From assembly GCA_947074225.1 (NCBI GenBank), contig CAMTOX010000005.1, forward strand, positions 1 through 16,388: 16,388 bases of DNA, written 5' to 3'. Position numbers and translations under genes: made by a program. This document shows positions 119-16,388 of this stretch, piece after piece (positions within the stretch are counted from its first letter, which is position 1; the number at the start of each line of letters is the position of its first letter). The DNA comes from an uncultured bacterium (GTDB lineage Bacteria > Bacteroidota > Bacteroidia > Bacteroidales > Paludibacteraceae). The notes beneath the pieces were generated by a model. It saw only the letters and a program-made list of their open reading frames with translations. It was not told where the DNA came from and searched no databases.

Positions 119-3100
119 CTACTTCAACAGCAGTAAGGCGTTAATCATAGAGGCCATCTGTTCGTTAAAATCGTATATGTAGTGAATAACAAAGCCTAAC
201 TCAAGTTTAAAGAGGTCGATTGCCGAACTCTCGGCATATAGTGTAACATCGCCCAATATCGGATTCATGATAAAAGTATAAGGCTTACTATTGGTAAGTA
301 TTTTAAACTCTCCAAAGCTTTTCATTAAGCCTTGTTCTGTAATTGGTATTTTGCGTTCCTCGCCATCAAAGAACCCTTTGTTGTGATGTATGCTGTAGCT
401 CAACTCAAGGCTATCGCCTTCGCCAGCATTAATAGGCAGTTTATTAATATACGACCGATTTAATTGAATAGATTCTGAAACAGTATCGCCATTAAAAGCT
501 ACTGTTTCTGTTAGTTCTATAGGTTGTGGCAAATAGTTTACCACTCGACCAATAGCTTCAATACTATCGCCTCTTACAGCAAAGTGTGGTAAAGAGAGTC
601 GGGCACTTAGGCTCAGATAACTCTTAATCTTCAACTCCTTTGTAGCCATCTGTTTGTTATTGTTTCCTATGCCAATGTAGTAAGTGTCCCATTCTGTAAT
701 ATCGTCTGGGTAGGTTACAGTTACAGTGGCTTTACCCTCTGCATTTGTGCGTATAGCGGGTTGCCAGAAGGCATCGTCATGGAAGTTGCGGCGCATATTG
801 CCACCACCATTAATAGAAACTTCTTCTTCTTCTTTTGGAGAATCTGGGACTGGAACATTCTCAATCATAACATCCTCTTCAAGGCTAATTACGTCGACAT
901 CTTCGTTCGTAAATGCTATGTTTTCTTCTTCAACTTCAGGTACCTTAGCTGCTGCAGAGTTTACATAAGACCTCTTAGTTTTAGTGCTATAACCCTCTAC
1001 CACAGCCTCATATATTATTGCAGTTTTCTCTTCTATCAAGGTAATTCTCAACTCTTCTCCGAGTTTTACCCTAATTGTAGCTGTTTGGTACCCCATATAA
1101 CTAACCTCAATAACATCGTTAGGGAAGAGGTCTAAACTGAAATTACCATCGAAATCAGCTATAGTACCTATATTAGAACCTTTTTTAAGTATAGCAGCTC
1201 CAATAATCGGCTCTCCTTCGCTGTCGACAACTGTGCCCGAGTAGAATGAACTCTGGTTTCTTCGTTCGGCTTTATTTAGGTTGTAGCCATTGCTGAGATG
1301 GTATGGAGAGATACGCTGATTAATCTCCAAAGAGTTCATGAAGAGTTGGTAACCAAAATTTGCCAAGGCACTATGCTTCTCGTAAGAGATAGAGTCGAGC
1401 GATAAATAGTTGTTACCTCCTGGCTTAATCTCAATTGGACGAGTATAAGAGAGGCTATCGTTTATAATGAGGGTTAAATTGATTTTACCATAAGGTAGAA
1501 TATCAAACTCTCTTGTTCCTCCATAATATAGCTGATAATTCTCTTTTGTCAAGCTGTCGCTATGCTCTATGGGGCTAAAGAGTATGAGCATTGGTTTAAT
1601 AGGCTCCTGATCTTTATTGTTTAGTAGTTGCAGTTGCAGTTTCGCCAATAGTTTATATATCTTATAATTAAGATTATAAAGCGGGTGCATACTCGTTGTT
1701 TGACTTATTACTTTTTGTAGGTCCGCTTTAAAGGTGGAATCTATATCGGCTCTGCTAAGTGGTTTATCTTCAAGGATAAGTTCACTATCGTACTTTATCA
1801 TATTATTGAGCCAACTATCGAAATTATTACTCGTACTCTTGAGTGCATCTTCATAAATAGTATATTCACTATTTCCCTCTAATGGTATAAAAGTTATCGC
1901 TTTGTTATTGCTGTATAGTTTTGCAGTAGCACCTAACTCTTCTGTGTACGAACGTTTTGGAAAAGGTCCTACCAACACGCTTTTTGATTTAAACTGTTTT
2001 GAACCTTCTCTTCTACTAGTATATGCAGGATTCAGATAGTAATAGTTACCAAATGTTTCTAATACCAATGGGGCGTCTATCTGAGAACCGGAAGTAAAGA
2101 TTCCAGGCATGCTTAAGTAATTTAATTTCGGAGTAATAACCATTAACTCTTTAGCCAGTAGTTCACGCTCGCCGGCTGTAAGTCTGCCTATGCTCTTTTG
2201 GGGCACTGTGTCGCTATACATCTTCATACCTAAATAGTCTGTGTTATCGGTAATGATGAACTCGGGAAGTGTACCATCTACTGAGTAGTAGTTGCGGTGT
2301 CCTTTTATAACGGGAACATTGTGTAAAAGAACTATCCGATCGTTTATTCGGAATCGTAAGTTGTGTTTGCCGGGTGTTACCTCGAAACTATACACCCTCT
2401 GTTGTTCGCTGTTGGCGTAATGATATAGGATATTATCAATCCATAGTAGGTAATTGTTCATTATGTCTCCCTCTTTTACTACATAGGGAATGAGCTGTGT
2501 GCTACTGTCGGCCGATGGAATGGCATAATGATAAAACCGATTTGGAAATAAGAACTTATAATATTCAATACTATCTAATCCTAATTGCGATTGCCATAGC
2601 GAGTCAATCTTTGAATCTCTTATGTGGTCAACCCCTCTATCGCTTTTCTTTAGAGGTACCGTTACCACTTGACTTGCTTTCTTAACCTGCTTATAGGTGT
2701 CGATAAATGGCTTGTTGTTCGTGTTAAACTTCGAGGTGTAGCCATAGGCTGTTATATCGGCATTGGCTATGGGTTCGCCCTTCTCATTTGTCATGCTGAA
2801 TTGTAACTCTGCCTCTTCTCCAGGGTATACCTTTAGTGGTGTCTCGATCTCTAAATAGGCATACTGATTAATAATATCTAAGTTCTCGGTCTGTTGTTTT
2901 AAGATGCCTCCATAAATATAGTCGATTGTGAGTTGGTATGGTACTCTTTTTTTAGCTACAAAGCATCTGTTTAGTTCTGTAGAATAACCCGATGCAACGA
3001 GTTTCTTGTTGTCCATTAACCGATACCAAAAGGGTATTGAGGTGATACTATTTACTTGCACTAAAATGCTATCGCCTTTTCGTGTTAAAGAACTTTGAAG

Positions 3101-4687
3101 TGGTGAACCATTTAGGCTGCTCTGTTCACTGGCTTTGTTACCATAACTATCTTTTACTTCTACTCTTCCGATATACCAAGGTATGGTATCGGCATAAGGC
3201 AACATGACCTCTCGCTTCTCAAGTAAGCGGTTGTTGTAGCCATAGTATAATACTTCGGCTTGTGTAGTGTCTAAGCTTCCTCCGTCGTAAGCTTTCATAG
3301 TTGCTATGCCTTTGTCTATGCTAATGCTCAGGTCTCTACGCTTGTTTGCTCTTTGTTGAGATAGATATGCTACATGTTTTTCATTGTCTGGACTCCAATA
3401 GGTACATTGAATTAGGTAATAGAAATTCACATTCTTAGGGAATATACTATCGGGTATCACTACCACATTGTCCGCTTGCTCACTCATGTCTAATTGTTCA
3501 AACCATAACGTATCGGGAATAAAGATATCTTTGTTATTCTCTTTGTTTATAATAGCAGTAGGCGTAATGACAATTTCCGCTTTACCTCCATATACAGGCA
3601 TACTATTTTCATCGTCTACTATGATGGTAAATTCTGATGGCTCACCTGAATAATACTTCTCTTTTTTTCTTGTTAGATTTAAATTTATGCCTTTTAGTTC
3701 ATACTCCTCGTATGAAAAATTGTTTTTCAGATTATTCCAATTCAGTTTGTTATTACTGCTCTCTATCTTAATTGTGCACTTGGTATCCAGTAACAGATTT
3801 AAACTGTCGGATAGTATAAATTCAGAGTGATACATTCCCGGACGATAGGGTTTTAATTCCCTTACTAGTACGGTGTCTTTTAAACTGCGAAAACTTTGTT
3901 TGCTTGATTGGGTTTGATATTGAAGCACTATATCTATAGGTTCATTGTAAAGAACATCGTTATTGTCGGTAGCATAGAGTTTAAACTTAACCGTTTCATT
4001 AGGTTTATATTTTGGTTTATTGGTAACCATAAATCCTTTCATCCTAATTTTCTCATTCTCTTTCCCTTTCTTCTTCTTTGAACTTACCTTCTGTTGCTTT
4101 ACTTTGACATATTTCTTATTGGTAGTTTGGACATAGTATTTTACGATCTTTTCATAATGGTACACACCATTGTTGTTAAAGGTAATAATACCCTTATTGC
4201 CGTTCTTATAATTAGGGTTGTAAGGATCAAAGTGTTTAGGCTTGTAGTTGTTAAAGTAGTATAGTTGTAGCTTGCTATTATATTTGGCCTTACGCTTACC
4301 GTGGCGTACCTCTATATTTGGTAAGTTCTCGCCTTTAGTGTTGGTTACACGGAATTGTAGCAACTCTCCTGGTATGAGTGTTACTATAAAATCGTCGTGC
4401 GTATGCTCCTCTAATATCAGCTTACCCTCATTGCTACTTACTAATATATAGTTGCCAAAGGGTAGGTTAGGGCATGTGTCGGTATAAAGATATTGAGTTA
4501 CAGAGTCGCCAAGCAAAGTGGTATAATTTATATCTTTCTCATTATTGAACCGATACAACTCTTTTGCACCTATTTTGTATACTAATACATGATTTGATCG
4601 ACGTTCACTCTCGGCCAGGCGGTTCTGGCACATAACGCTACTTATGCAGCACGCTAAAAGTGCAAGTAATAGGGTTCTCTTTTTCAT
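119..4687 (-). CDS. Alpha-2-macroglobulin-family secreted protein, thioester-less, truncated by in-frame TAG
   Basis: Probable exported macroglobulin-like protein of 1522 aa up to a TAG. The N-terminus has a hydrophobic signal with likely cleavage before Q21 (SVMC|QN). A Lys-rich linker (about 185-215) precedes an MG2-type domain (about 216-310; KPKYKPNETVKFKLY and KPYRPGMY), followed by more MG-like beta domains. Residues 1149-1220 form a CarboxypepD_reg-like domain (GTVVDSEGEP, DFDGNF, SYMGYQ). It ends in a SusC-like EAVVEGYS (1227-1234). An acidic segment (1251-1289) follows, then the A2M domain from M1298 (MRRNF, YPDDITEW). The thioester site reads F1507-N-E-Q, so the Cys is missing. The ORF stops 12 residues after Q1510, although the family continues for hundreds of residues. 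It lies 18 bp downstream of its full-length paralogue, presumably in the same operon. It may be a decaying copy, or the stop may be a sequencing error near the contig edge. The family call is firm; the functional state is not. Confidence 0.85.
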   Translation of the reverse strand: MKKRTLLLALLACCISSVMCQNRLAESERRSNHVLVYKIGAKELYRFNNEKDINYTTLLGDSVTQYLYTDTCPNLPFGNYILVSSNEGKLILEEHTHDDFIVTLIPGELLQFRVTNTKGENLPNIEVRHGKRKAKYNSKLQLYYFNNYKPKHFDPYNPNYKNGNKGIITFNNNGVYHYEKIVKYYVQTTNKKYVKVKQQKVSSKKKKGKENEKIRMKGFMVTNKPKYKPNETVKFKLYATDNNDVLYNEPIDIVLQYQTQSSKQSFRSLKDTVLVRELKPYRPGMYHSEFILSDSLNLLLDTKCTIKIESSNNKLNWNNLKNNFSYEEYELKGINLNLTRKKEKYYSGEPSEFTIIVDDENSMPVYGGKAEIVITPTAIINKENNKDIFIPDTLWFEQLDMSEQADNVVVIPDSIFPKNVNFYYLIQCTYWSPDNEKHVAYLSQQRANKRRDLSISIDKGIATMKAYDGGSLDTTQAEVLYYGYNNRLLEKREVMLPYADTIPWYIGRVEVKDSYGNKASEQSSLNGSPLQSSLTRKGDSILVQVNSITSIPFWYRLMDNKKLVASGYSTELNRCFVAKKRVPYQLTIDYIYGGILKQQTENLDIINQYAYLEIETPLKVYPGEEAELQFSMTNEKGEPIANADITAYGYTSKFNTNNKPFIDTYKQVKKASQVVTVPLKKSDRGVDHIRDSKIDSLWQSQLGLDSIEYYKFLFPNRFYHYAIPSADSSTQLIPYVVKEGDIMNNYLLWIDNILYHYANSEQQRVYSFEVTPGKHNLRFRINDRIVLLHNVPVIKGHRNYYSVDGTLPEFIITDNTDYLGMKMYSDTVPQKSIGRLTAGERELLAKELMVITPKLNYLSMPGIFTSGSQIDAPLVLETFGNYYYLNPAYTSRREGSKQFKSKSVLVGPFPKRSYTEELGATAKLYSNNKAITFIPLEGNSEYTIYEDALKSTSNNFDSWLNNMIKYDSELILEDKPLSRADIDSTFKADLQKVISQTTSMHPLYNLNYKIYKLLAKLQLQLLNNKDQEPIKPMLILFSPIEHSDSLTKENYQLYYGGTREFDILPYGKINLTLIINDSLSYTRPIEIKPGGNNYLSLDSISYEKHSALANFGYQLFMNSLEINQRISPYHLSNGYNLNKAERRNQSSFYSGTVVDSEGEPIIGAAILKKGSNIGTIADFDGNFSLDLFPNDVIEVSYMGYQTATIRVKLGEELRITLIEEKTAIIYEAVVEGYSTKTKRSYVNSAAAKVPEVEEENIAFTNEDVDVISLEEDVMIENVPVPDSPKEEEEVSINGGGNMRRNFHDDAFWQPAIRTNAEGKATVTVTYPDDITEWDTYYIGIGNNNKQMATKELKIKSYLSLSARLSLPHFAVRGDSIEAIGRVVNYLPQPIELTETVAFNGDTVSESIQLNRSYINKLPINAGEGDSLELSYSIHHNKGFFDGEERKIPITEQGLMKSFGEFKILTNSKPYTFIMNPILGDVTLYAESSAIDLFKLELGFVIHYIYDFNEQMASMINALLLLK

Positions 4688-4705: not shown

Positions 4706-7700
4706 TTATTCTGTAATCTTAATCTGTTTCATACTGTTGTTGCCATAGAAAATTGGAAAATACATTAACTCTATCTTGGCAGGGTTTAAATGATATGCTC
4801 CGCTAAATCGTGGTAGGAGCGAAATGGTAAAAATATGTTCTCCTTCCGTTAGTTGGTCACAGAATATCACTACCCGATCTTTATAATATTCACGATGTAT
4901 CTCGTTCTTATTGCACTCTTCGCGCTCTTTATTGTAGCTACAACCTGCCGGTATAGGCACCTCTATCATAACGTAGTTTGCCATCTGGGCTACTTTTACT
5001 TTTATCTCTAACTCTACTTTCTCACCGGCTGTTAAGCTGTTGGTAATAGCACTGTTTTGTACAAATTGACTTTCAATCTCAAAACCCTGGTTGCGCTCTA
5101 CATTAGGGTGACTTACAAAGTTATGCTGGTAAGTGGCGACAAACAGTGGCGCTTGGCCTATACGTTCTATGGTTACCTCGTTGGCGATTCCTAAATTAAC
5201 ACTATAAGGAAGTTCATGTATGGTTTTTCCATTCACTATAGCACTGCTCTTTAGTACTGTTTCTTCATCTTTCATCAAGTCGGGTAGAAGTTGTTTGGCT
5301 ATCTGGTACCGTTCGTAGGTGTTATTCCACCCTTGTTGCGCCTTCATCTCAAAGAAGTAGTTCTGCATTTTGGCTAAACTATCAGCACTTACACCCATCT
5401 GTTTCATCAGTTCGTACCCTAATAAACTATTGAAAATAGCTCCTTGATATGGTATTGGCGAAAACAATCTTTGCCCCTTATTCTGTTCGTCACTCCAGTA
5501 GTAGCTACCTAATAGGCTCTCCTTCATATCCTTCAAGAGCGAGTCTTTATCCATTTTATCGGCTAACCCAATGGCAAAGAGTGTTTGTTGTTCCAGTAGT
5601 CGCTCTTCTATCGTTGTGTTATCATACAGCGTAACCACCTCATTGTAGTATTGCTCGTAATTGGTTTTTACCCCTAACCGTTTTAGTAGTTGTAGAGTTT
5701 GTAATAGATGGCATTTATTGGAAAGCTCTTTGTTAGCGTTGTAACGCACTCGGCTTAATTGTTGTTTACTTTGACGTTCCAACTCAATTCCTATCTTTTT
5801 AAAATCTAAATCTACTCTATAGCCTGCCTCTTGAGCGTTCAATAGTTGGGTTATTACATGGTAGCTAATCCATTCGGAGCTGCGACTCTTTCCCCACCAG
5901 CCCCACAAATGTTCATCGTTCTGATTCTTTACCAATAGTTTAATAAGCTTTTTCAACTCTTTATCGCCCCCGAAAGGTTCACCTTTAGAGATGCAATAGT
6001 ACCGTTTAAGTAGCAAGGCGCCAATCTTAGAGGTTATTTGTTCATTGCAGTCGTAAATATAGTTAATCACCAAATCTAACTCAGTATCTATCACACTACT
6101 GAGCATATTGCCAATAAATAGTTGTGTATTGCCATAGTTACTGTCGATAGGAAGTGTCTGTGGCGTGTTGTTGTCGATAATCCGGAACGTCCCTTTGTTT
6201 ATCTCTATGCCTTGTGCAAGTATAGGAATAGTACGCTCTTCGCCATCAAAATAACCACTTTGAGTTACAATGCTATAGCTCACCGTTAAGCTATCGGTAG
6301 CATTAGCTGTTACCGGAATATACTGCACATGCGATTTATCTACCTCTATACTGTTGCTAAAACTATCGGTAGGTGTCGTACAACGCTCGCTTAGCGTAAT
6401 ACTATCGGACAGATAGTTTACCACCTGACCTATGGCTACCATGCTATCGCCCTCTATGGTAAACTTGGGCATGCTTAAGCGTGCGCTTAAATCTAACAAA
6501 CTCTTGGTGTTATTGAATTCTATACGTACTTGCTGTTTCTTGTTGCCTACAGCAATGAAATAGCCATTCCATTGTGTAATGTTGTCGGGATAGGTAAAGT
6601 TTACTGTTGCTTTACCCGCTTTATCGGTCTTAATGTTGGGTAACTCAAAAGCCACATCGTTAAAGTTGCGGCGCATACTGTTGCGTCCTTCATCAGGAAA
6701 TACTTCGCCTAATAGTTCTACAACACCTGTTTCTGCGTTGTTCTTAGCCCCTTTATATGAGGTGATAATTATGGCACCTCCTGGAGCTCTACTGCCATAT
6801 AATTGCATGCTTTCATCGGCATTAAGTACCGCAATATTATCTATGTCGTCTGGACTGATAGTCGTTATGTCGCCACTTACAATAACACCATCGACAACAT
6901 AAATAGGAGAGGAACTACTATTAACAGAACCTATACCACGAATGCGAACTGAGGCGTTTGTAGCAGCCAAACCTAGAACTTCTCCCTCAAGTAGTTCGGC
7001 AAGGCTCTTCCTATTAACGTTATCACCACTAACTAATTCGCAGCTTGCCATGTAACTGTGTACTATTTCGGGTTGGTTACAAGAGTAACCTAACACAAGA
7101 GCCTCGTCATACTCAACTTCCGAAGGTTTGCTGAGTATAACAATTATGGTATCGCCACCATTGTAGATGCTCTTATAAGTCGTATTGTATTTGTTGATTA
7201 TCTGAATGGTATCGCCTTTCTGCATTGGCATACAGAATTCTCCCTCTTGGTTGCTCATAGTTTTCTCGCCATTGGTCAGATTCTCTACTTTAGCTAAACG
7301 CTCTTTATTTTGGTTATAATAAATAACTCCTACCACACACTCCTCGGTAGGTTGTTGTAATGCCCTATTCCAAGCTCCTCTTTTTATACCACGTTTGTGG
7401 TGGTAGTTTATTGGATAATACTCTATTAACGACCTATAGTCGGCAAGGAGTTTTTTAGTAAGTATAGAATCGCGCTCTGTGCAAATTGAATCCAAAACGA
7501 TATAATTATTGCTATTTTGCTCTAATTTAATGGTTTGTGTATAGGAAGTAGAGTCTTTCATTACAATGGTCATCTTCATATCGGCCAATGCTAAAGGGTA
7601 TGCAGGTCGATGTGAGTAGCTAAACCATTGGAATACTCCTGGTTGAGTGCTATCGTTGGAACTGAAGTATATAAATAGAGGATGTACTGATTTTAGATTA

Positions 7701-10700
7701 CAATCTCTTTTAATCGTCATCGACAAGGTATAGGGCTCTATCCCTTTGGTATATTCTATATTCTGTGCAATGATACTGTTGGTGCTATTACTGTTGTTTA
7801 TAACAAGTTCCTGCTTTTTTTGCGAAATAGATTCTAATGTAACAGGTACAATATCTTTCTTAAGTGCCGATAGCAAATAGAATCCATTGTAACTACTGTT
7901 ATTATTAGCATTGCTTTTAATTATATTAGGATTGTAACCCTTTATTGTCGAAATGAAGAACGTGTCGTTATACAGCTCGTAACTACCATTAGGCTTAAGA
8001 GGTACTCTGCCCATGGCAATTGTGTCGCTATAAATGGTTATCTCCAAATCTTCACTATGGTCACGACCTAAGTGAGGGAATGGCCCAACCAAATAACTAT
8101 CAATATCTCTATTTCGTTTGTACTCAGAGTATCCTTTTTCGTAAGGGTTCACATGATAGTATTGTCCGGCATACTCTATCGCTATAGGGAGATAAAATCG
8201 TTCATCAGAGTGAGGTAGATAGATATACCCCATAGCTCCCTTAATCTCTATGAAATGGCTCATTACCTGTTCGATTTCCGATTGTTCAAGATCAAAGAAA
8301 CTCTTTATGAAATTTCTCTCACTATGCGTTGTTATAGGTAGAGCACTATTGGGTACTATGGTTTCACTCTTTTCGGCATTACCATTCACTATGATCAGAT
8401 TCCTTTGCCCGGCTTCAATAGGCACATTCTCTACTTCTACCATACGTCCCGGAATTAAGAAGCGTAGATTGTGCAAACCGGGTGTAATCTGAAACTGTTC
8501 TCTGGAACTGTTACCGAAAATGTTGGTGGCGAAGAGCAAATTGTCTATCCAGAATAATATAGGTTCTTTGTAAACTCCATTTTCCACAACATGTGCCCAT
8601 ATCCAGGTAGTGCTATCGTTGGTAACATGCTGTTTTATGCTTACACCACTGGGGTATAGAAAATCTAAGTTCTCTTCTTGTTCTTTATCTAACAACTCGG
8701 GCATGAACTCTTGTAAACTGAAAGTAGCGAAGAAATCTTCTAATTCCAGATACGTGTATTGATCTTGGTACCACCCATCTGGTTCAACTCCTTTATTTTC
8801 TAAAAAGAAGGTAGGTGCTACATTGGATTTTAATTGAGCGTTAACGCCACAAGCTGTAATGTCGGCATGTTTCACACCATCTCCCTTAGTGTCGGTTACT
8901 GTAAACTGAATCTCCCCTTTGCTACCAGGAGTTACGCGTTTAGCACTCTCTACATTAACCGATAGTTTGTTGCTGCTCACCTCTATGTAATCCTCTATCG
9001 AAATTGGACCTTCATATAGAAAGTCGCCATAAAGATAATTGAGTTTTACACTATAAATTTGTTTGCCTCTCACACGCCATTCCCGATTCAGTTCGTTGCC
9101 ATATCCTTTAGCAATGGTTCTGTTGTTGCGTTTAATGGTATACAAAAAAGGAACTTGTGCCGGGTTTTCGCTTTTAATCAGAATCTTATTATTCTCTTGA
9201 GTTAAATGTAGTGCAATAGGTATCTCTTGTGTGGTAATAAAATAGCTTTCCTCGTAGCCATTATCGCATATTACATTCACCTCCTCAACATTCCATGGAA
9301 TCGTATCTTGATAAGGCAACTCCACCCAACGTTCCGATAGTAAAACCTCTTCGGAAGAGAAATGTTTTACTATTGCTCCAACCTTTTCTTGCTTTCCAAA
9401 GTGTATGGCTTTAATATCTAATACTCCTAATCGATATTGAAATTCAATATTCAAACTCTTGCACTCCCAGCTTCCGCGCATGCTTTTTCTATACTCTTCG
9501 CGGTTAGAACTCTCGTAAATGCACGTTATGGTATAATCTATATCGGCATCGTTTGGGAATACAGAACCAGGAATTAGCAACTCTTCTTTATATTTGTTGT
9601 TCAAATTTATCTCTTGACTCCATAGTGTGTCGGGTATATAGATTACTTTGTTTTTACCCATCACTCTTTTTTCTCTACACCTGATTATTACATTGGCTTT
9701 GCCTCCATATACAGGCATGTCTGACACATCGACCACTTCCAAATTAATGCGTAAGGTGTCGCCGGCACCAATCAACTCTTTATTGGCTGTAAACTTGGTT
9801 TCAATGTTTTTTAAATCGTAGTCGGTATATTCAAATTTTCCAAAGATAGGCCATAACTCTTTACCATTGTTCATAGGTACAATAACATAGTCTTGGTCTA
9901 TCACCAGGTTTAAACTATCGGTTAAATAAAACTCATAGCAGTACATACCGGGTCTATAAGGTTTTACCCCTCTGGCTATCACACTATCTTTTACTTGGAT
10001 TGCGTTAGACATGCCAAAATAGTTCTGATTTTTATGTTTCAATATTAAATCAATAGGCTTACTGCTGCGTTTACCTCTGTTGTCTTCTAAATAGAGTTTC
10101 AGCTCCACTTTATCGTTAGGCCGATATTTGGGCTTACTCATAGCTACAAAACCGTAGGTGGATTTTGTTTTTTCGCTTCTTTGGTCTCTGCGTTCACTTA
10201 AGCGCTCAGTCCAATCTAACCATTTCATTTCCATTTTCTCTTTCCACGAATCCTGATCGAATTCGCCGAAATAGTAAATGCCATCATGTTCAATTAGTAA
10301 ACTCCCATCCTTGTGCAGTGTCGATAAGCGGTAGTAATTGTTTTTACGGTTGTAGTAAATGCGATGACCGCGATGCCACACTTTTGCATTAGGCACTAAT
10401 ACTCCCAAGCTATCGTATAACTTAAAATGTAAACGATTTTCTATCACTTTCTGAGCATATAGATTGCCCACTGTATGATTTCTTAATTCCCAACGATTGT
10501 TGAGTTTCTCAACTGTGAGGTAATTGCCATTGGGAAGCTCAGGGTATACACTATCCTTTGCAAAAGCCATTACATAATCGGTCATCAACTCTTTTGGGTT
10601 TTTATACCTAGAGTTGGCTATTTTTTTACACTGCTTCTTGGTTAACCGATACACATAAACCGAGTCTTTCAAGGAATTGGCTTGAAAGGATTGTGCTTCA

Positions 10701-10759
10701 ATAGTGTTAACTCCAAGAAGTGCTATTAGGCAAAATAATAGTAATGTTACGCGTTTCAT
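4706..10759 (-). CDS. Alpha-2-macroglobulin-family protein with embedded TonB-plug domain and intact thioester motif
   Basis: Complete 2017-aa exported protein. The signal peptide is MKRVTLLLFCLIALLGVNTIEA, probably cut before Q23, with no lipobox. An MG2 domain lies at about 198-290 (SKPKYRPNDKVELKLYL; KPYRPGMY), followed by MG-like beta domains sharing PGLHNLRF and YLVGPFP with the downstream paralogue. A diverged CarboxypepD_reg-like domain spans about 1141-1213, ending in EALVLGYS (1219-1226). A SusC-type TonB plug spans about 1249-1337 (VRIRGIGS 1271-1278, YVVDG 1287-1291, YGSRAPGG 1321-1328). No beta-barrel follows. The A2M domain starts at M1362 (YPDNITQW). The alpha-helical thioester domain spans about 1560-1825 with C1571-N-E-Q, the CxEQ thioester motif. 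A C-terminal beta domain like bacterial MG10 spans about 1894-2017. Family members covalently trap attacking proteases, so this one is inferred to act in the periplasm or at the cell surface. It is the first gene of the operon. The role of the plug is unknown. Confidence 0.92.
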   Translation of the reverse strand: MKRVTLLLFCLIALLGVNTIEAQSFQANSLKDSVYVYRLTKKQCKKIANSRYKNPKELMTDYVMAFAKDSVYPELPNGNYLTVEKLNNRWELRNHTVGNLYAQKVIENRLHFKLYDSLGVLVPNAKVWHRGHRIYYNRKNNYYRLSTLHKDGSLLIEHDGIYYFGEFDQDSWKEKMEMKWLDWTERLSERRDQRSEKTKSTYGFVAMSKPKYRPNDKVELKLYLEDNRGKRSSKPIDLILKHKNQNYFGMSNAIQVKDSVIARGVKPYRPGMYCYEFYLTDSLNLVIDQDYVIVPMNNGKELWPIFGKFEYTDYDLKNIETKFTANKELIGAGDTLRINLEVVDVSDMPVYGGKANVIIRCREKRVMGKNKVIYIPDTLWSQEINLNNKYKEELLIPGSVFPNDADIDYTITCIYESSNREEYRKSMRGSWECKSLNIEFQYRLGVLDIKAIHFGKQEKVGAIVKHFSSEEVLLSERWVELPYQDTIPWNVEEVNVICDNGYEESYFITTQEIPIALHLTQENNKILIKSENPAQVPFLYTIKRNNRTIAKGYGNELNREWRVRGKQIYSVKLNYLYGDFLYEGPISIEDYIEVSSNKLSVNVESAKRVTPGSKGEIQFTVTDTKGDGVKHADITACGVNAQLKSNVAPTFFLENKGVEPDGWYQDQYTYLELEDFFATFSLQEFMPELLDKEQEENLDFLYPSGVSIKQHVTNDSTTWIWAHVVENGVYKEPILFWIDNLLFATNIFGNSSREQFQITPGLHNLRFLIPGRMVEVENVPIEAGQRNLIIVNGNAEKSETIVPNSALPITTHSERNFIKSFFDLEQSEIEQVMSHFIEIKGAMGYIYLPHSDERFYLPIAIEYAGQYYHVNPYEKGYSEYKRNRDIDSYLVGPFPHLGRDHSEDLEITIYSDTIAMGRVPLKPNGSYELYNDTFFISTIKGYNPNIIKSNANNNSSYNGFYLLSALKKDIVPVTLESISQKKQELVINNSNSTNSIIAQNIEYTKGIEPYTLSMTIKRDCNLKSVHPLFIYFSSNDSTQPGVFQWFSYSHRPAYPLALADMKMTIVMKDSTSYTQTIKLEQNSNNYIVLDSICTERDSILTKKLLADYRSLIEYYPINYHHKRGIKRGAWNRALQQPTEECVVGVIYYNQNKERLAKVENLTNGEKTMSNQEGEFCMPMQKGDTIQIINKYNTTYKSIYNGGDTIIVILSKPSEVEYDEALVLGYSCNQPEIVHSYMASCELVSGDNVNRKSLAELLEGEVLGLAATNASVRIRGIGSVNSSSSPIYVVDGVIVSGDITTISPDDIDNIAVLNADESMQLYGSRAPGGAIIITSYKGAKNNAETGVVELLGEVFPDEGRNSMRRNFNDVAFELPNIKTDKAGKATVNFTYPDNITQWNGYFIAVGNKKQQVRIEFNNTKSLLDLSARLSMPKFTIEGDSMVAIGQVVNYLSDSITLSERCTTPTDSFSNSIEVDKSHVQYIPVTANATDSLTVSYSIVTQSGYFDGEERTIPILAQGIEINKGTFRIIDNNTPQTLPIDSNYGNTQLFIGNMLSSVIDTELDLVINYIYDCNEQITSKIGALLLKRYYCISKGEPFGGDKELKKLIKLLVKNQNDEHLWGWWGKSRSSEWISYHVITQLLNAQEAGYRVDLDFKKIGIELERQSKQQLSRVRYNANKELSNKCHLLQTLQLLKRLGVKTNYEQYYNEVVTLYDNTTIEERLLEQQTLFAIGLADKMDKDSLLKDMKESLLGSYYWSDEQNKGQRLFSPIPYQGAIFNSLLGYELMKQMGVSADSLAKMQNYFFEMKAQQGWNNTYERYQIAKQLLPDLMKDEETVLKSSAIVNGKTIHELPYSVNLGIANEVTIERIGQAPLFVATYQHNFVSHPNVERNQGFEIESQFVQNSAITNSLTAGEKVELEIKVKVAQMANYVMIEVPIPAGCSYNKEREECNKNEIHREYYKDRVVIFCDQLTEGEHIFTISLLPRFSGAYHLNPAKIELMYFPIFYGNNSMKQIKITE

Positions 10760-13028: not shown

Positions 13029-13484
13029 TTATGTTTCGAAAAACTCATCGTATTCATAGTTCTCGAAAACATACTCAACAAAATTATTCACTGTTGGACG
13101 CATTATAAATGGTCCATATTCAAGTCTTAGTCCGGGGTGATTTACTTGAACCACACTCCACTCTGCCTCCTCGTTAATGTCGCTAAGGCTCTTTTCAAGA
13201 GTATAATAGGTAGCACTTTGAGATAAATAGTCGAAAAAAATTAAGCCAAATATTGGCTTTTCATTATACGATGTCTCACCAAAATGATAAATACCTACCG
13301 ATTTATACTCCGAGAGTGGCCGATGTTCTATAATAATGTCTTGCCAATAGTTGAAGGCCTCGCTCTCTTTGTAGGTGTTGCGTAGATAATGTTTATCTAC
13401 CATGTGGTGTTGCTCCTCTTTACCCTGATTGTATGAATCTACCAGCTCTGGTAATAGCTGGTAAGCCAAATCATAGGTTGTCAT
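13029..13484 (-). CDS. Hypothetical acidic soluble protein, 151 aa
   Basis: I do not recognise a family. The protein starts MTTYDLAYQLLPELVDSYNQ and is rich in Glu, Asp and Tyr, especially at the C-terminus (FENYEYDEFFET). It has no signal peptide, no membrane segment and no obvious catalytic motif. The middle (GIYHFGETSYNEKPIFGLIFFDY) looks like beta strands and the ends look helical, so a small mixed fold is likely. The ATG at 13484 is the first in the frame and no better start is visible. It is convergent to the ABC-F gene and monocistronic in this window. The length, even codon use and a shared terminator support a real gene. It is presumably cytoplasmic. Confidence 0.75.
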   Translation of the reverse strand: MTTYDLAYQLLPELVDSYNQGKEEQHHMVDKHYLRNTYKESEAFNYWQDIIIEHRPLSEYKSVGIYHFGETSYNEKPIFGLIFFDYLSQSATYYTLEKSLSDINEEAEWSVVQVNHPGLRLEYGPFIMRPTVNNFVEYVFENYEYDEFFET

Positions 13485-13607: not shown

Positions 13608-13757
13608 TAAATAAATAGTTATATATTGTATAAAAATTTATTCTTTTTGTATGTTTATTGATTATAAAGGATACTCTAGTTCCATTTTTTTGTGAGCAAG
13701 CTAACTATTGAAACGTGTAAAGATAGGGTATGTTTCTTTCATTAATGGCAAAATAGA

Positions 13758-13806
13758 AGCTCTTGTTTTATAGAGTTTCTCTGTTTGAATCTATAGAACA
13801 AGAGCT
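13758..13806 (-). terminator. Inverted repeat, probable terminator of the Hcp-like/flavoprotein operon
   Basis: AGCTCTTGTTTTATAG (13758-13773) is complementary to CTATAGAACAAGAGCT (13791-13806) with a single T-G wobble, and the stem extends one more A-T pair inward. On the minus strand it follows the stop at 13863 by about 57 bases and is followed by TCTATTTTG, a weak U-tract. A terminator or 3'-end-protecting hairpin is the likeliest role. Confidence 0.5.
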
Positions 13807-13862
13807 ATAATTCTCGAATTGGCCATTGTTAGTCGCTCCGGAAGATATTATCATGTTAAAGG

Positions 13863-14420
13863 TTACTCTTTTTGTTGTTCTTGGTTTACGATGAAATGAT
13901 TTTTTACATCTTCAACTTGATGTACATACTCTTGCTTTAATACTGGATGATTAATACCTGTTTCTGTGGAGAAATGTTGATAATATTCGGGTAGTGAAAA
14001 AGCAGCTAAGATCTCTGCACCATGCAGTGGAAACTCTCTTAATGCTGCTCCCATAACACACGAGGCTCCTTTTGCTCCCGGAGAAGTGGAGAGAAGAAAT
14101 AGTTTTAATTTATGAAAGAGTTTATGTTCGGCACGCGAACACCAGTCGAACATGTTCTTAAATGCCGGAGTATAACTTCCATTATATTCGGCCAATGAGA
14201 GTATAACTAAATTGGCCGATGCTAATTTCTTAGCAAATAATATGGCCTGTTCAGGAATTCCTAAACTACTCTCTAACTCCGGGCTATATATAGGTATAGG
14301 GAAGTTGTTTAAATCTAATAGTTCTATCTGTGCTCCTTCAAACAGATGTGCCGTATAGTTTGCAAAAGCTTTATTTATACTTGTTGTACTGTTGCTTGCG
14401 CCAAATGCTACTATTTTCAT
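13863..14420 (-). CDS. NAD(P)H-dependent FMN reductase-family flavoprotein
   Basis: 185 aa with a flavodoxin-like fold, the usual length for the family. The FMN-phosphate loop is GASNSTTSIN (7-16), close to the family GSxRxxSxN. The flavin-ring loop is LAEYNGSYTPAFKNMFDW (76-93), equivalent to PEYNGSxPxxLKNxxDW. A further conserved loop is STSPGAKGA (111-119). Family members use NAD(P)H to reduce FMN, quinones, azo dyes or metal ions; the true substrate cannot be read from the sequence. It lies 40 bp downstream of the Hcp-like gene on the same strand, so the two are probably cotranscribed. It could supply reduced flavin or electrons to that partner, but this is inference from position only. 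It has no signal peptide, so it is cytoplasmic. It ends in TAA. Confidence 0.88.
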   Translation of the reverse strand: MKIVAFGASNSTTSINKAFANYTAHLFEGAQIELLDLNNFPIPIYSPELESSLGIPEQAILFAKKLASANLVILSLAEYNGSYTPAFKNMFDWCSRAEHKLFHKLKLFLLSTSPGAKGASCVMGAALREFPLHGAEILAAFSLPEYYQHFSTETGINHPVLKQEYVHQVEDVKNHFIVNQEQQKE

Positions 14421-14460: not shown

Positions 14461-16005
14461 CTAATGACTCTCTACAACATTAATAAATTTGCAATGATAA
14501 CGTTTTGCAAGTTCTTCTTGCATGGCATTGGTAATGAATGGAGGTGTGGTAGGTCCTAAATATATTTGTTGATACCCCAGCTTAAGCATGGTAATATATA
14601 TGAGAATAGATTTCTCGCTAAACCATGCTAAATGAAACTCTATGGGTAGATCTGTTACCTCTTTAAGTTCTGCCTCTTTTACGAGTTCGTTGAATATAAT
14701 ATGCCATGAGTAGATATCGGCACACTGTCCGGCATCTAAAATTCGAGGCATATTAGCCAACGTACCTAAGTTATCTTGATTAAATTGATATTTAATATTA
14801 CCGGCTGTAAGAATTAGGCAATCTTCTTTTTGTGCCTCTATGAGCTGCTTGTAGAAGCCATATTCATCTTGACCATTATCGCATCCTGCCACAAGTAAAA
14901 GTTTGCTGATGGTTCCATTTTTAATTGATTGTGCCATGCGTGGTAAGAGGTTCATGGTTTGTTGATGTCTAAATCCAATGGTAAGTTCTTTACCATTATT
15001 CTCGGCCGGAGCAGTCATGGTTTTCGCTTTCGCTATTAATTGGCTAAAGTCCCTACTGCTATCTTTATCATTTCTCTCTATGGCATTCCAACTATTTAAG
15101 CTCACACTTCCGGTAGTAAATACTCTGTTACTTAATGGTGAATCGGCATCAATGTAGGGTAGAGGCGAGGTGGTTAACAGAATTGCTCCGCCAAATTTCT
15201 CGAAGTCATTTACATGGTCGCCAATCTCGAATCCATAATTAGCCACTAAATGGCGCTCTTTCTTAAATGCCGGATAGCTATGTGCTCCTAAAAGAGAGTC
15301 GTGGGTGTAGATGTCTACCTCTTGTTCACGGCTCTGCTCTAATAGCTGGTAGAGTGCTTCCATATCTTCGCCGCATACTAATATGCCCGGTTTTTCACCA
15401 TTAACGGTGGCTACTAGTGTGACTTCTGGTATGCCAAAAGCGTTGGTTTTTACTCCATCTAACTGAGTTATTATTTGGAAACCGTCGGCAGCAACCTGCT
15501 CAATAATATTCCAAATGTCGTCGTGAGATTCTATGTTGTTTAGATTTACTATTACCTGCATGAGGTTATGGTAGATATTAGAATCTACTGAAGCAAAAGC
15601 CGAAATCTGTTCGCAATAAGAGGCTAATCCTTTTGTCGCAAAGAGTAAGAAGCGTTTTAGTTCAAACCATTCGCTATCGTTATCTTTAATGATAAACTCA
15701 AAGAGGGCATTGTCTTCCCATGCAGGGTCGTCGTGTGTCGGGAATTTGCTCTGTGAAAGATAGTCGGGATAACTCTCTTCAATCTTCTTGCGAAGCTCTA
15801 AACAGCTTGCTATGGTCGATTCTAAAAGGGCATTATCAAAATTACTATCAATACATGTCATGGCCAATGCGTGGCATAGATAGCGTCCATTTGTTGTTGT
15901 CTCTGCTCCTTTAGTTTCAGCATAAAGTGTTGCCTCGGCAAGGGCTTGGCAACAATACAACAGTTTGTTTTGATGTTGCAGTGGAGTAATACTCAATGTT
16001 TCCAT
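14461..16005 (-). CDS. Hybrid cluster protein (Hcp) homologue lacking most metal-cluster ligands
   Basis: 514 aa, slightly shorter than classical Hcp (about 550), and alignable from about residue 17 to the end. Shared segments include LYQLLEQ, DIYTHDSLLGAHSYP, HLVANYG, LVAGCDNG, DCLILTAGNIKYQFN, MPRILDAGQC and LGPTTPPF. The N-terminal four-cysteine motif that binds the [4Fe-4S] cluster is absent. Compared with the E. coli Hcp ligands as I recall them, H249 is E213, E273 is S237, C317 is P281, C433 is N403 and E492 is S463. Only C405 (C375, the persulfide Cys), C458 (C428) and K494 (K465) remain. A normal hybrid cluster therefore seems impossible, so hydroxylamine or NO reductase activity should not be assumed. 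The 514-codon frame is uninterrupted, which argues for a retained non-canonical role. It is cytoplasmic and the first gene of an operon with a flavin reductase. It ends in TAG. Confidence 0.85.
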   Translation of the reverse strand: METLSITPLQHQNKLLYCCQALAEATLYAETKGAETTTNGRYLCHALAMTCIDSNFDNALLESTIASCLELRKKIEESYPDYLSQSKFPTHDDPAWEDNALFEFIIKDNDSEWFELKRFLLFATKGLASYCEQISAFASVDSNIYHNLMQVIVNLNNIESHDDIWNIIEQVAADGFQIITQLDGVKTNAFGIPEVTLVATVNGEKPGILVCGEDMEALYQLLEQSREQEVDIYTHDSLLGAHSYPAFKKERHLVANYGFEIGDHVNDFEKFGGAILLTTSPLPYIDADSPLSNRVFTTGSVSLNSWNAIERNDKDSSRDFSQLIAKAKTMTAPAENNGKELTIGFRHQQTMNLLPRMAQSIKNGTISKLLLVAGCDNGQDEYGFYKQLIEAQKEDCLILTAGNIKYQFNQDNLGTLANMPRILDAGQCADIYSWHIIFNELVKEAELKEVTDLPIEFHLAWFSEKSILIYITMLKLGYQQIYLGPTTPPFITNAMQEELAKRYHCKFINVVESH

Positions 16006-16341
16006 AGTTTGTATATTATTTTTTTATTCTGTGTTGCGACATATCGGCTATGGTACAGCTGCGAAAGATAAAATGAGATAGCTAGTTGAGTTTTGTTATG
16101 ATGAGCGACATTCAAACTTGGTTTGCTATTCTGTTTCTCTCTGAAATGATTTTGCAAACATTATTCCAACTTACAACTCATTTCAATCTTTGAACCCGCT
16201 TATACTTTGAAGAGGATAATGAATCTTTGGTTGAAGTTGAAAAGTGCAATGAAATGTTTTATTTCTGTTTTTATGCTTAATAATTTATTTAAAGTATTAA
16301 TTTTGTTTTGTATCGTATAGTGTTTAATAGTTCTATTTTAG
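16006..16341. other. Intergenic region upstream of the Hcp-like gene
   Basis: No gene is visible in these 336 bp. Besides the weak leftward -7-like box, a plus-strand TAATTTTG (16298-16305) matches TAnnTTTG but lacks a -33 partner. It could belong to a rightward gene beyond the contig end. I found no clear FNR/CRP-type palindrome near the start. Confidence 0.5.
16063..16070 (-). promoter_or_regulatory. Weak -7-like box upstream of the Hcp-like gene
   Basis: On the minus strand this reads TATCTTTC, one base off TAnnTTTG, about 58 bases before the ATG at 16005. No matching -33 box is seen. Confidence 0.22.
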
Positions 16342-16388
16342 AGATCGGAAGAGCACACGTCTGAACTCCAGTCACATTCAGAAATCTC
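16342..16388 (+). other. Illumina TruSeq adapter and index read-through (not genomic)
   Basis: The sequence from 16342 begins AGATCGGAAGAGCACACGTC and continues exactly as the TruSeq read-1 adapter up to GTCAC. It is followed by the 8-nt index ATTCAGAA (TruSeq HT D705 as I recall) and ATCTC, the start of the next adapter segment. These 47 bases are a library artefact at the contig end, and genomic sequence stops at or before 16341. Confidence 0.98.

Follow-up and report, generated by a model that had tools for sequence, protein, structure and literature searches.

A Paralog of the Hybrid Cluster Protein from a Paludibacteraceae Bacterium that Has Probably Lost Both Iron-Sulfur Clusters

Introduction

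The hybrid cluster protein (Hcp, or prismane) is known in three classes: class I, to which the proteins of D. vulgaris, D. desulfuricans, and M. thermolithotrophicus belong (PF03063, TIGR01703), class II, which includes the E. coli protein, and class III, which includes that of M. marburgensis. The available part of PMC10502027 describes the cluster ligands as present throughout all three classes. The present work concerns a gene on the minus strand, at positions 14461–16005, of a 16,388-nucleotide window (the whole stretch of DNA that was analyzed; contig CAMTOX010000005.1, assembly GCA_947074225.1) from an uncultured bacterium of the family Paludibacteraceae. Its product differs from the class I Hcps in lacking the N-terminal cysteines, in the replacement of five of the seven hybrid-cluster ligands, and in scoring below the TIGR01703 cut-off, and the ligand conservation reported for classes II and III does not extend to it. 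Considered by itself, the absence of both Hcp clusters is highly probable from these residues. With considerably more reserve, we lean towards the broader interpretation that this is an Hcp paralog which, having lost both iron-sulfur (Fe-S) clusters and kept the class I fold, serves another job, with a re-lined cavity that binds a ligand or a partner.

Incomplete active sites have been described in a sister family. In groups A-4 and A-6 of the nickel carbon monoxide dehydrogenases (Ni-CODH), the accessible text of PMC6344411 gives the active-site residues as D, P, C, C, C, C, then Q and R for A-4 and as N, S, C, C, C, C, H, L for A-6; like the paralog, these are members with an incomplete set, and ligand loss is thus already known in the superfamily. 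The paralog differs from CooS-V (CODH-V of C. hydrogenoformans), in which a hybrid Fe-S-O cluster is still present, and it is not itself a Ni-CODH when judged by the CODH-type fold and the ligands of the C-cluster. A search of open-licence papers revealed no account of a cluster-less Hcp.

Results

Membership of the Hcp Family

The gene under study consists of a single open frame:

14461..16005, minus strand: cluster-less Hcp paralog, ATG to TAG, 514 amino acids

An initial annotation of the window, made from the sequence without database searches, had proposed a frame of 514 codons (strand not stated) whose product keeps the fold-defining segments of Hcp over nearly its whole length, and had called for a profile alignment to PF03063. 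The Pfam model PF03063 (Prismane) matches residues 11–504 with 235.9 bits, which places the paralog in this family with a prismane/Hcp domain over its full length, and phmmer aligns it to D. vulgaris Hcp (1e2u) with an E-value of 3e-79. Of the NCBIfam models, NF003658 (hydroxylamine reductase) scores above its cut-off (373.3 bits vs. 367) and TIGR01703 below (344.4 bits vs. 360.8). Because one such equivalog model accepts the paralog, automatic annotation may label the gene as a hydroxylamine reductase even though the residues that hold the cofactor are absent. The codon usage of the frame is like that of the neighboring genes and the two shifted frames fit less well. The database copy of the window protein (P0001) differs from it at one residue, I179M.

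Loss of the Cluster Ligands and N-Terminal Cysteines

Ligand positions were mapped by counting chain positions along the phmmer alignment to 1e2u, and the codons were read back from the DNA. We take H244, E268, C312, C406, C434, C459, and E494 of D. vulgaris Hcp to be the hybrid-cluster ligands. This set fits the seven conserved ligands described in the available part of PMC10502027. The sites are given below together with the residues of P0002, a 330-residue fragment that is 65% identical to the window protein (source ena, contig of 2,488 bases), and, where informative, of a reference set of 58 canonical Hcps used for column conservation.

15367..15369, minus strand: E213, at ligand His244 of D. 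vulgaris Hcp; E in P0002 too
15295..15297, minus strand: S237, at ligand Glu268; S in P0002 too
15163..15165, minus strand: P281, at ligand Cys312; P in P0002 too
14881..14883, minus strand: C375, at persulfide Cys406, retained; Ser in P0002
14797..14799, minus strand: N403, at ligand Cys434; N in P0002 too
14722..14724, minus strand: C428, at ligand Cys459, retained; Asn in P0002
14617..14619, minus strand: S463, at ligand Glu494; S in P0002 too
14611..14613, minus strand: K465, at Lys496; retained by P0002 and by all canonical sequences covering the site
15373..15375, minus strand: C211, a new Cys common to P0002; mostly Ser in canonical sequences and Cys in none of the 58
14968..14970, minus strand: R346, Ala in 97% of canonical sequences; R in P0002 too

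The window protein thus keeps two of the seven ligands (H, E, C, C, C, C, E) and P0002 none, so that cluster loss is seen in two diverged proteins. Since P0002 shares the E/S/P/N/S replacements and the lysine, with Ser and Asn in place of C375 and C428, these two cysteines are dispensable across the clade. None of the four N-terminal [4Fe-4S] cysteines is present in the window protein according to the alignment, and the P0002 fragment does not cover this region. A start-codon or frameshift error that hides these cysteines is ruled out, as no CxxC motif occurs upstream of the gene in any of the six frames of positions 16003–16341. An alignment slip is likewise ruled out, because two alignment programs agree on the residue map and on the spacings. 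Each of the corresponding statements of the initial annotation agrees with these results, viz. the missing N-terminal cysteines, the five replacements, the canonical spacings of 24, 44, 28, and 25 residues (the same in the alignment to 1e2u), and the survival of C375, C428, and K465, which match C406, C459, and K496 of D. vulgaris Hcp. Its view that the protein is a fold-retaining paralog that cannot be a canonical Hcp is supported. A dip in AlphaFold confidence at the C375 loop (block 371–380, 73) is uninformative, as the canonical control P0003 dips likewise (block 401–410, 74).

Rarity among Homologs and Genomes

Homologs were collected in three protein searches, of which the best 120 of 1,020, 466, and 947 hits, respectively, were considered. 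Two of them scored the 7,996 candidates sharing most words, and the third, with P0002 as query, covered 2,556 candidates; short fragments further down the hit lists could escape. Among the 267 proteins in the matches listed by these searches, 265 have all seven ligands, the exceptions being P0001 and P0002; ligand loss is therefore not ordinary divergence. All twelve inspected residues are present in 255 of the 267, and ten lack only one or more of the N-terminal positions (short or late-starting entries). No further clade member beyond P0002 was found among these listed matches, in two genome_contigs scans, or in one viral_contigs scan. None was seen either among 46 plasmid records, all below 60% identity (31–32% in the five rows inspected).

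The genome searches, which covered overlapping samples (101 relatives and 393 order, 395 phylum, 358 family, and 395 class genomes), found the gene in its own genome only. Of 83 Hcp-like frames in the loci from these searches (reference and repeats included), 75 carry the lysine plus the full set of seven ligands; the other eight comprise four copies of the window gene and four fragments, which are canonical at those of the residues that they include. By score, the window protein is an outlier among the 395 phylum genomes (235.5 bits), the next matches covering at least 450 profile positions scoring at least 306; ligands were inspected for those matches with loci.

The initial annotation had asked whether a cluster-less clade exists. 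In a tree made by a quick method and drawn with midpoint rooting, which included 21 hand-picked locus rows in which the canonical AWYEQKA motif was required, the window protein and P0002 were set apart with a Shimodaira–Hasegawa-like approximate likelihood ratio test (SH-aLRT) value of 100 and a very long stem, the parent Hcp not being indicated. The window protein thus belongs to a distinct clade in which it has one diverged companion or more. The case against which the same annotation had cautioned, a lone single-strain gene under relaxed selection, was not seen, although members of this clade are extremely scarce in the data searched.

As a separate observation, three Hcps of 518–521 amino acids (P0190, P0196, and P0212) have all seven hybrid-cluster ligands and no N-terminal cysteines; both late start calls and a real loss of the [4Fe-4S] site alone are possible for them.

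Constraint on the Paralog

At the columns invariant in the 58 canonical Hcps, the window protein and P0002 are identical in 71 of 81 cases (50 with the canonical residue and 21 with a shared new one), and at columns less than 60% conserved they agree in 38 of 84. At the 98 columns with a conservation of 98% or more, both proteins deviate in 31 cases, 24 of them with the same residue, and one protein alone deviates in nine others. The residues C211, E213, H435, H458, and E464 are new and common to both, and none occurs in any of the canonical sequences. Up to three residues away from the ligand sites, the two proteins are identical at 35 of 42 positions (83%) vs. 63% elsewhere, a conservation of the former ligand loops that argues against decay. 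Loop conservation and shared replacements together favor continued purifying selection, as far as the two sequences can tell.

Genomic Neighborhood and the Canonical hcp Gene

The features adjoining the paralog gene are as follows:

13863..14420, minus strand: putative NAD(P)H-dependent flavin mononucleotide (FMN) reductase (PF03358, 92.9 bits), the next gene on the same strand after a 40-bp gap
13750..13815, minus strand: hairpin, possible terminator, 3' of the FMN reductase gene (−21.1 kcal/mol, z −4.43, 1 of 200 shuffles as stable)
16006..16341, minus strand: upstream sequence as far as the adapter, in which no HcpR2-type site occurs when up to two mismatches are allowed

The paralog gene is probably co-transcribed with the FMN reductase gene. 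The hairpin was not listed by a pattern scan, and neither Rfam nor the pattern that we assume for Bacteroidetes-type promoters gave a match. At the contig end, positions 16342–16375 are an exact 34-base match to the adapter AGATCGGAAGAGCACACGTCTGAACTCCAGTCAC, presumably an Illumina adapter, and the last 47 bases are likely non-genomic.

A canonical hcp, for which the initial annotation had suggested looking, is present in the same genome, on contig C215, behind genes for a divergent Crp/Fnr-type regulator, a cupin, and a ferredoxin. The divergent intergenic region of that locus contains GTAACAAATGTTAC, which is identical to the HcpR2 consensus given in the available text of PMC1274295. The exact HcpR2 pattern occurs eight times in the genome vs. 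five times for a reversed control, so that the site is telling solely through its position ahead of the canonical operon. The accessible part of PMC13370916 reports that hcp of B. thetaiotaomicron depends on HcpR. An HcpR-type site and a ferredoxin neighbor, as found at the hcp of many anaerobes, thus accompany the canonical copy, whereas no HcpR2-type site was found in the 336 bp upstream of the cluster-less gene, i.e., up to the adapter, beyond which the contig carries no genes. The latter gene probably lies outside the HcpR regulon. Both hcp genes likely belong to one organism, having similar composition, but this is not proven in a draft genome (67.5% complete, 1.8% contaminated, 393 contigs).

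Other Features of the Window

Two tandem giant alpha-2-macroglobulin-like proteins of 1522 and 2017 amino acids are encoded on the minus strand (119–4687 and 4706–10759). The shorter one, which contains a carboxypeptidase-regulatory-like domain, ends where the longer one continues, so that a truncation or frameshift close to the end of the contig may have shortened it. The longer one includes a stretch that resembles a TonB-receptor plug by eye, with no Pfam match. A further frame of 151 amino acids (13029–13484, minus strand) has no match in Pfam or NCBIfam.

Discussion

In having lost conserved catalytic or cofactor residues, the paralog is, by its sequence, a candidate pseudoenzyme. Under the interpretation that we lean towards, the space of the lost hybrid cluster would be re-lined with the polar residues E213, S237, N403, and S463, with C211, R346, E464, and the kept lysine K465 perhaps forming part of the same cavity, which would bind a small ligand or a protein partner. 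The protein would then be neither a nitric oxide (NO) nor a hydroxylamine reductase but a metal-free protein that acts as a binder, a sensor, or a non-redox enzyme, and its gene would be co-transcribed with that of the FMN reductase outside the HcpR regulon. A more specific version, in which this is a metal-free Hcp/CODH branch with the cavity rebuilt as an organic active or binding site (C211/E213/S237/R346/N403/S463/E464 plus K465) that works with the NAD(P)H:FMN reductase encoded in the same transcription unit, we regard as tentative and rather unlikely.

Several observations weigh against the interpretation that we lean towards. Of the conserved columns changed in either protein, 24 of 40 (60%) agree between the two, which is not above their overall identity of 65%. 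Among 16,019 canonical pairs of 60–70% identity, the ligand loops are on average 88.8% identical, so that the loop conservation seen here is at the low end: with windows of 3, 4, 5, and 6 residues, 10.9, 1.3, 28.6, and 7.5% of these pairs, respectively, are no better conserved. On these alignments, the old active-site loops are still conserved, though a little less tightly than those of functional Hcps. Near the ligands, there is no clear crowding of changes at conserved columns (12 of 29 within three residues vs. 14 of 62, p 0.056; p 0.32 within two). The clade comprises two protein clusters, one of them a fragment without its N-terminus, and the [4Fe-4S] loss is seen in one protein only. Lastly, genomes G002, G029, G056, and G095 encode relatives of the FMN reductase (48–51% identity), but no Hcp frame lies within about 1.5 kb of them; the last three genomes fall outside the 27 that are Hcp-positive among the 101 relatives, and hcp of G002 is on a different contig. 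The FMN reductase/Hcp pairing is hence not ancestral.

The long stem on the tree, the great rarity (one genome among those searched and two protein clusters), and the differing residues at the last two cysteines would all suit slow decay after duplication, with the clusters lost, the protein drifting, and the frame open by chance or because the loss is recent. However, drift of this kind should have broken the frame, which runs for 514 codons without a stop and has a codon usage like that of its neighbors, and the replacements common to two proteins 65% identical over 330 amino acids and the 83% identity of the former ligand loops also speak against it; we consider decay improbable. The shared new residues C211, E213, H435, H458, and E464, absent from canonical Hcps, could instead, should their side chains meet, supply a small site for another metal (mononuclear Fe, Zn, or similar), but they form no recognised motif, and we hold this reading hardly more probable than decay.

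The initial annotation had held that the open frame implies selection for another job and had suggested, among other roles, a sulfur or NO carrier. The signs of continued constraint favor the first part. As for the second, a role of C375 and C428 in a persulfide/NO carrier or a transnitrosylase-like protein would fit the retention of both cysteines and their surrounding loops in the window protein, but P0002 has Ser and Asn there and yet keeps the other replacements, so that the cysteines are not required clade-wide; the carrier is not supported, and the reading as a whole appears very improbable. Pseudoenzymes often regulate their active kin, and with a canonical hcp in the same genome and the outer fold retained, the paralog might associate with the canonical Hcp or regulate it, e.g., as a heteromer subunit or a decoy for its electron donor. 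The two genes are, however, at separate loci with no HcpR-type site in common, and class I Hcps are described as monomers in the available part of PMC10502027; we give this possibility about as little credence as a new metal site.

The paralog is an unexpected, if rare, variant of a much-studied metalloenzyme. If the interpretation that we lean towards is correct, a diverged clade without cluster ligands would mean that the Hcp fold can persist without its cofactor. The protein would then provide a natural cluster-free control for Hcp structure and would represent a new use of the Hcp fold.
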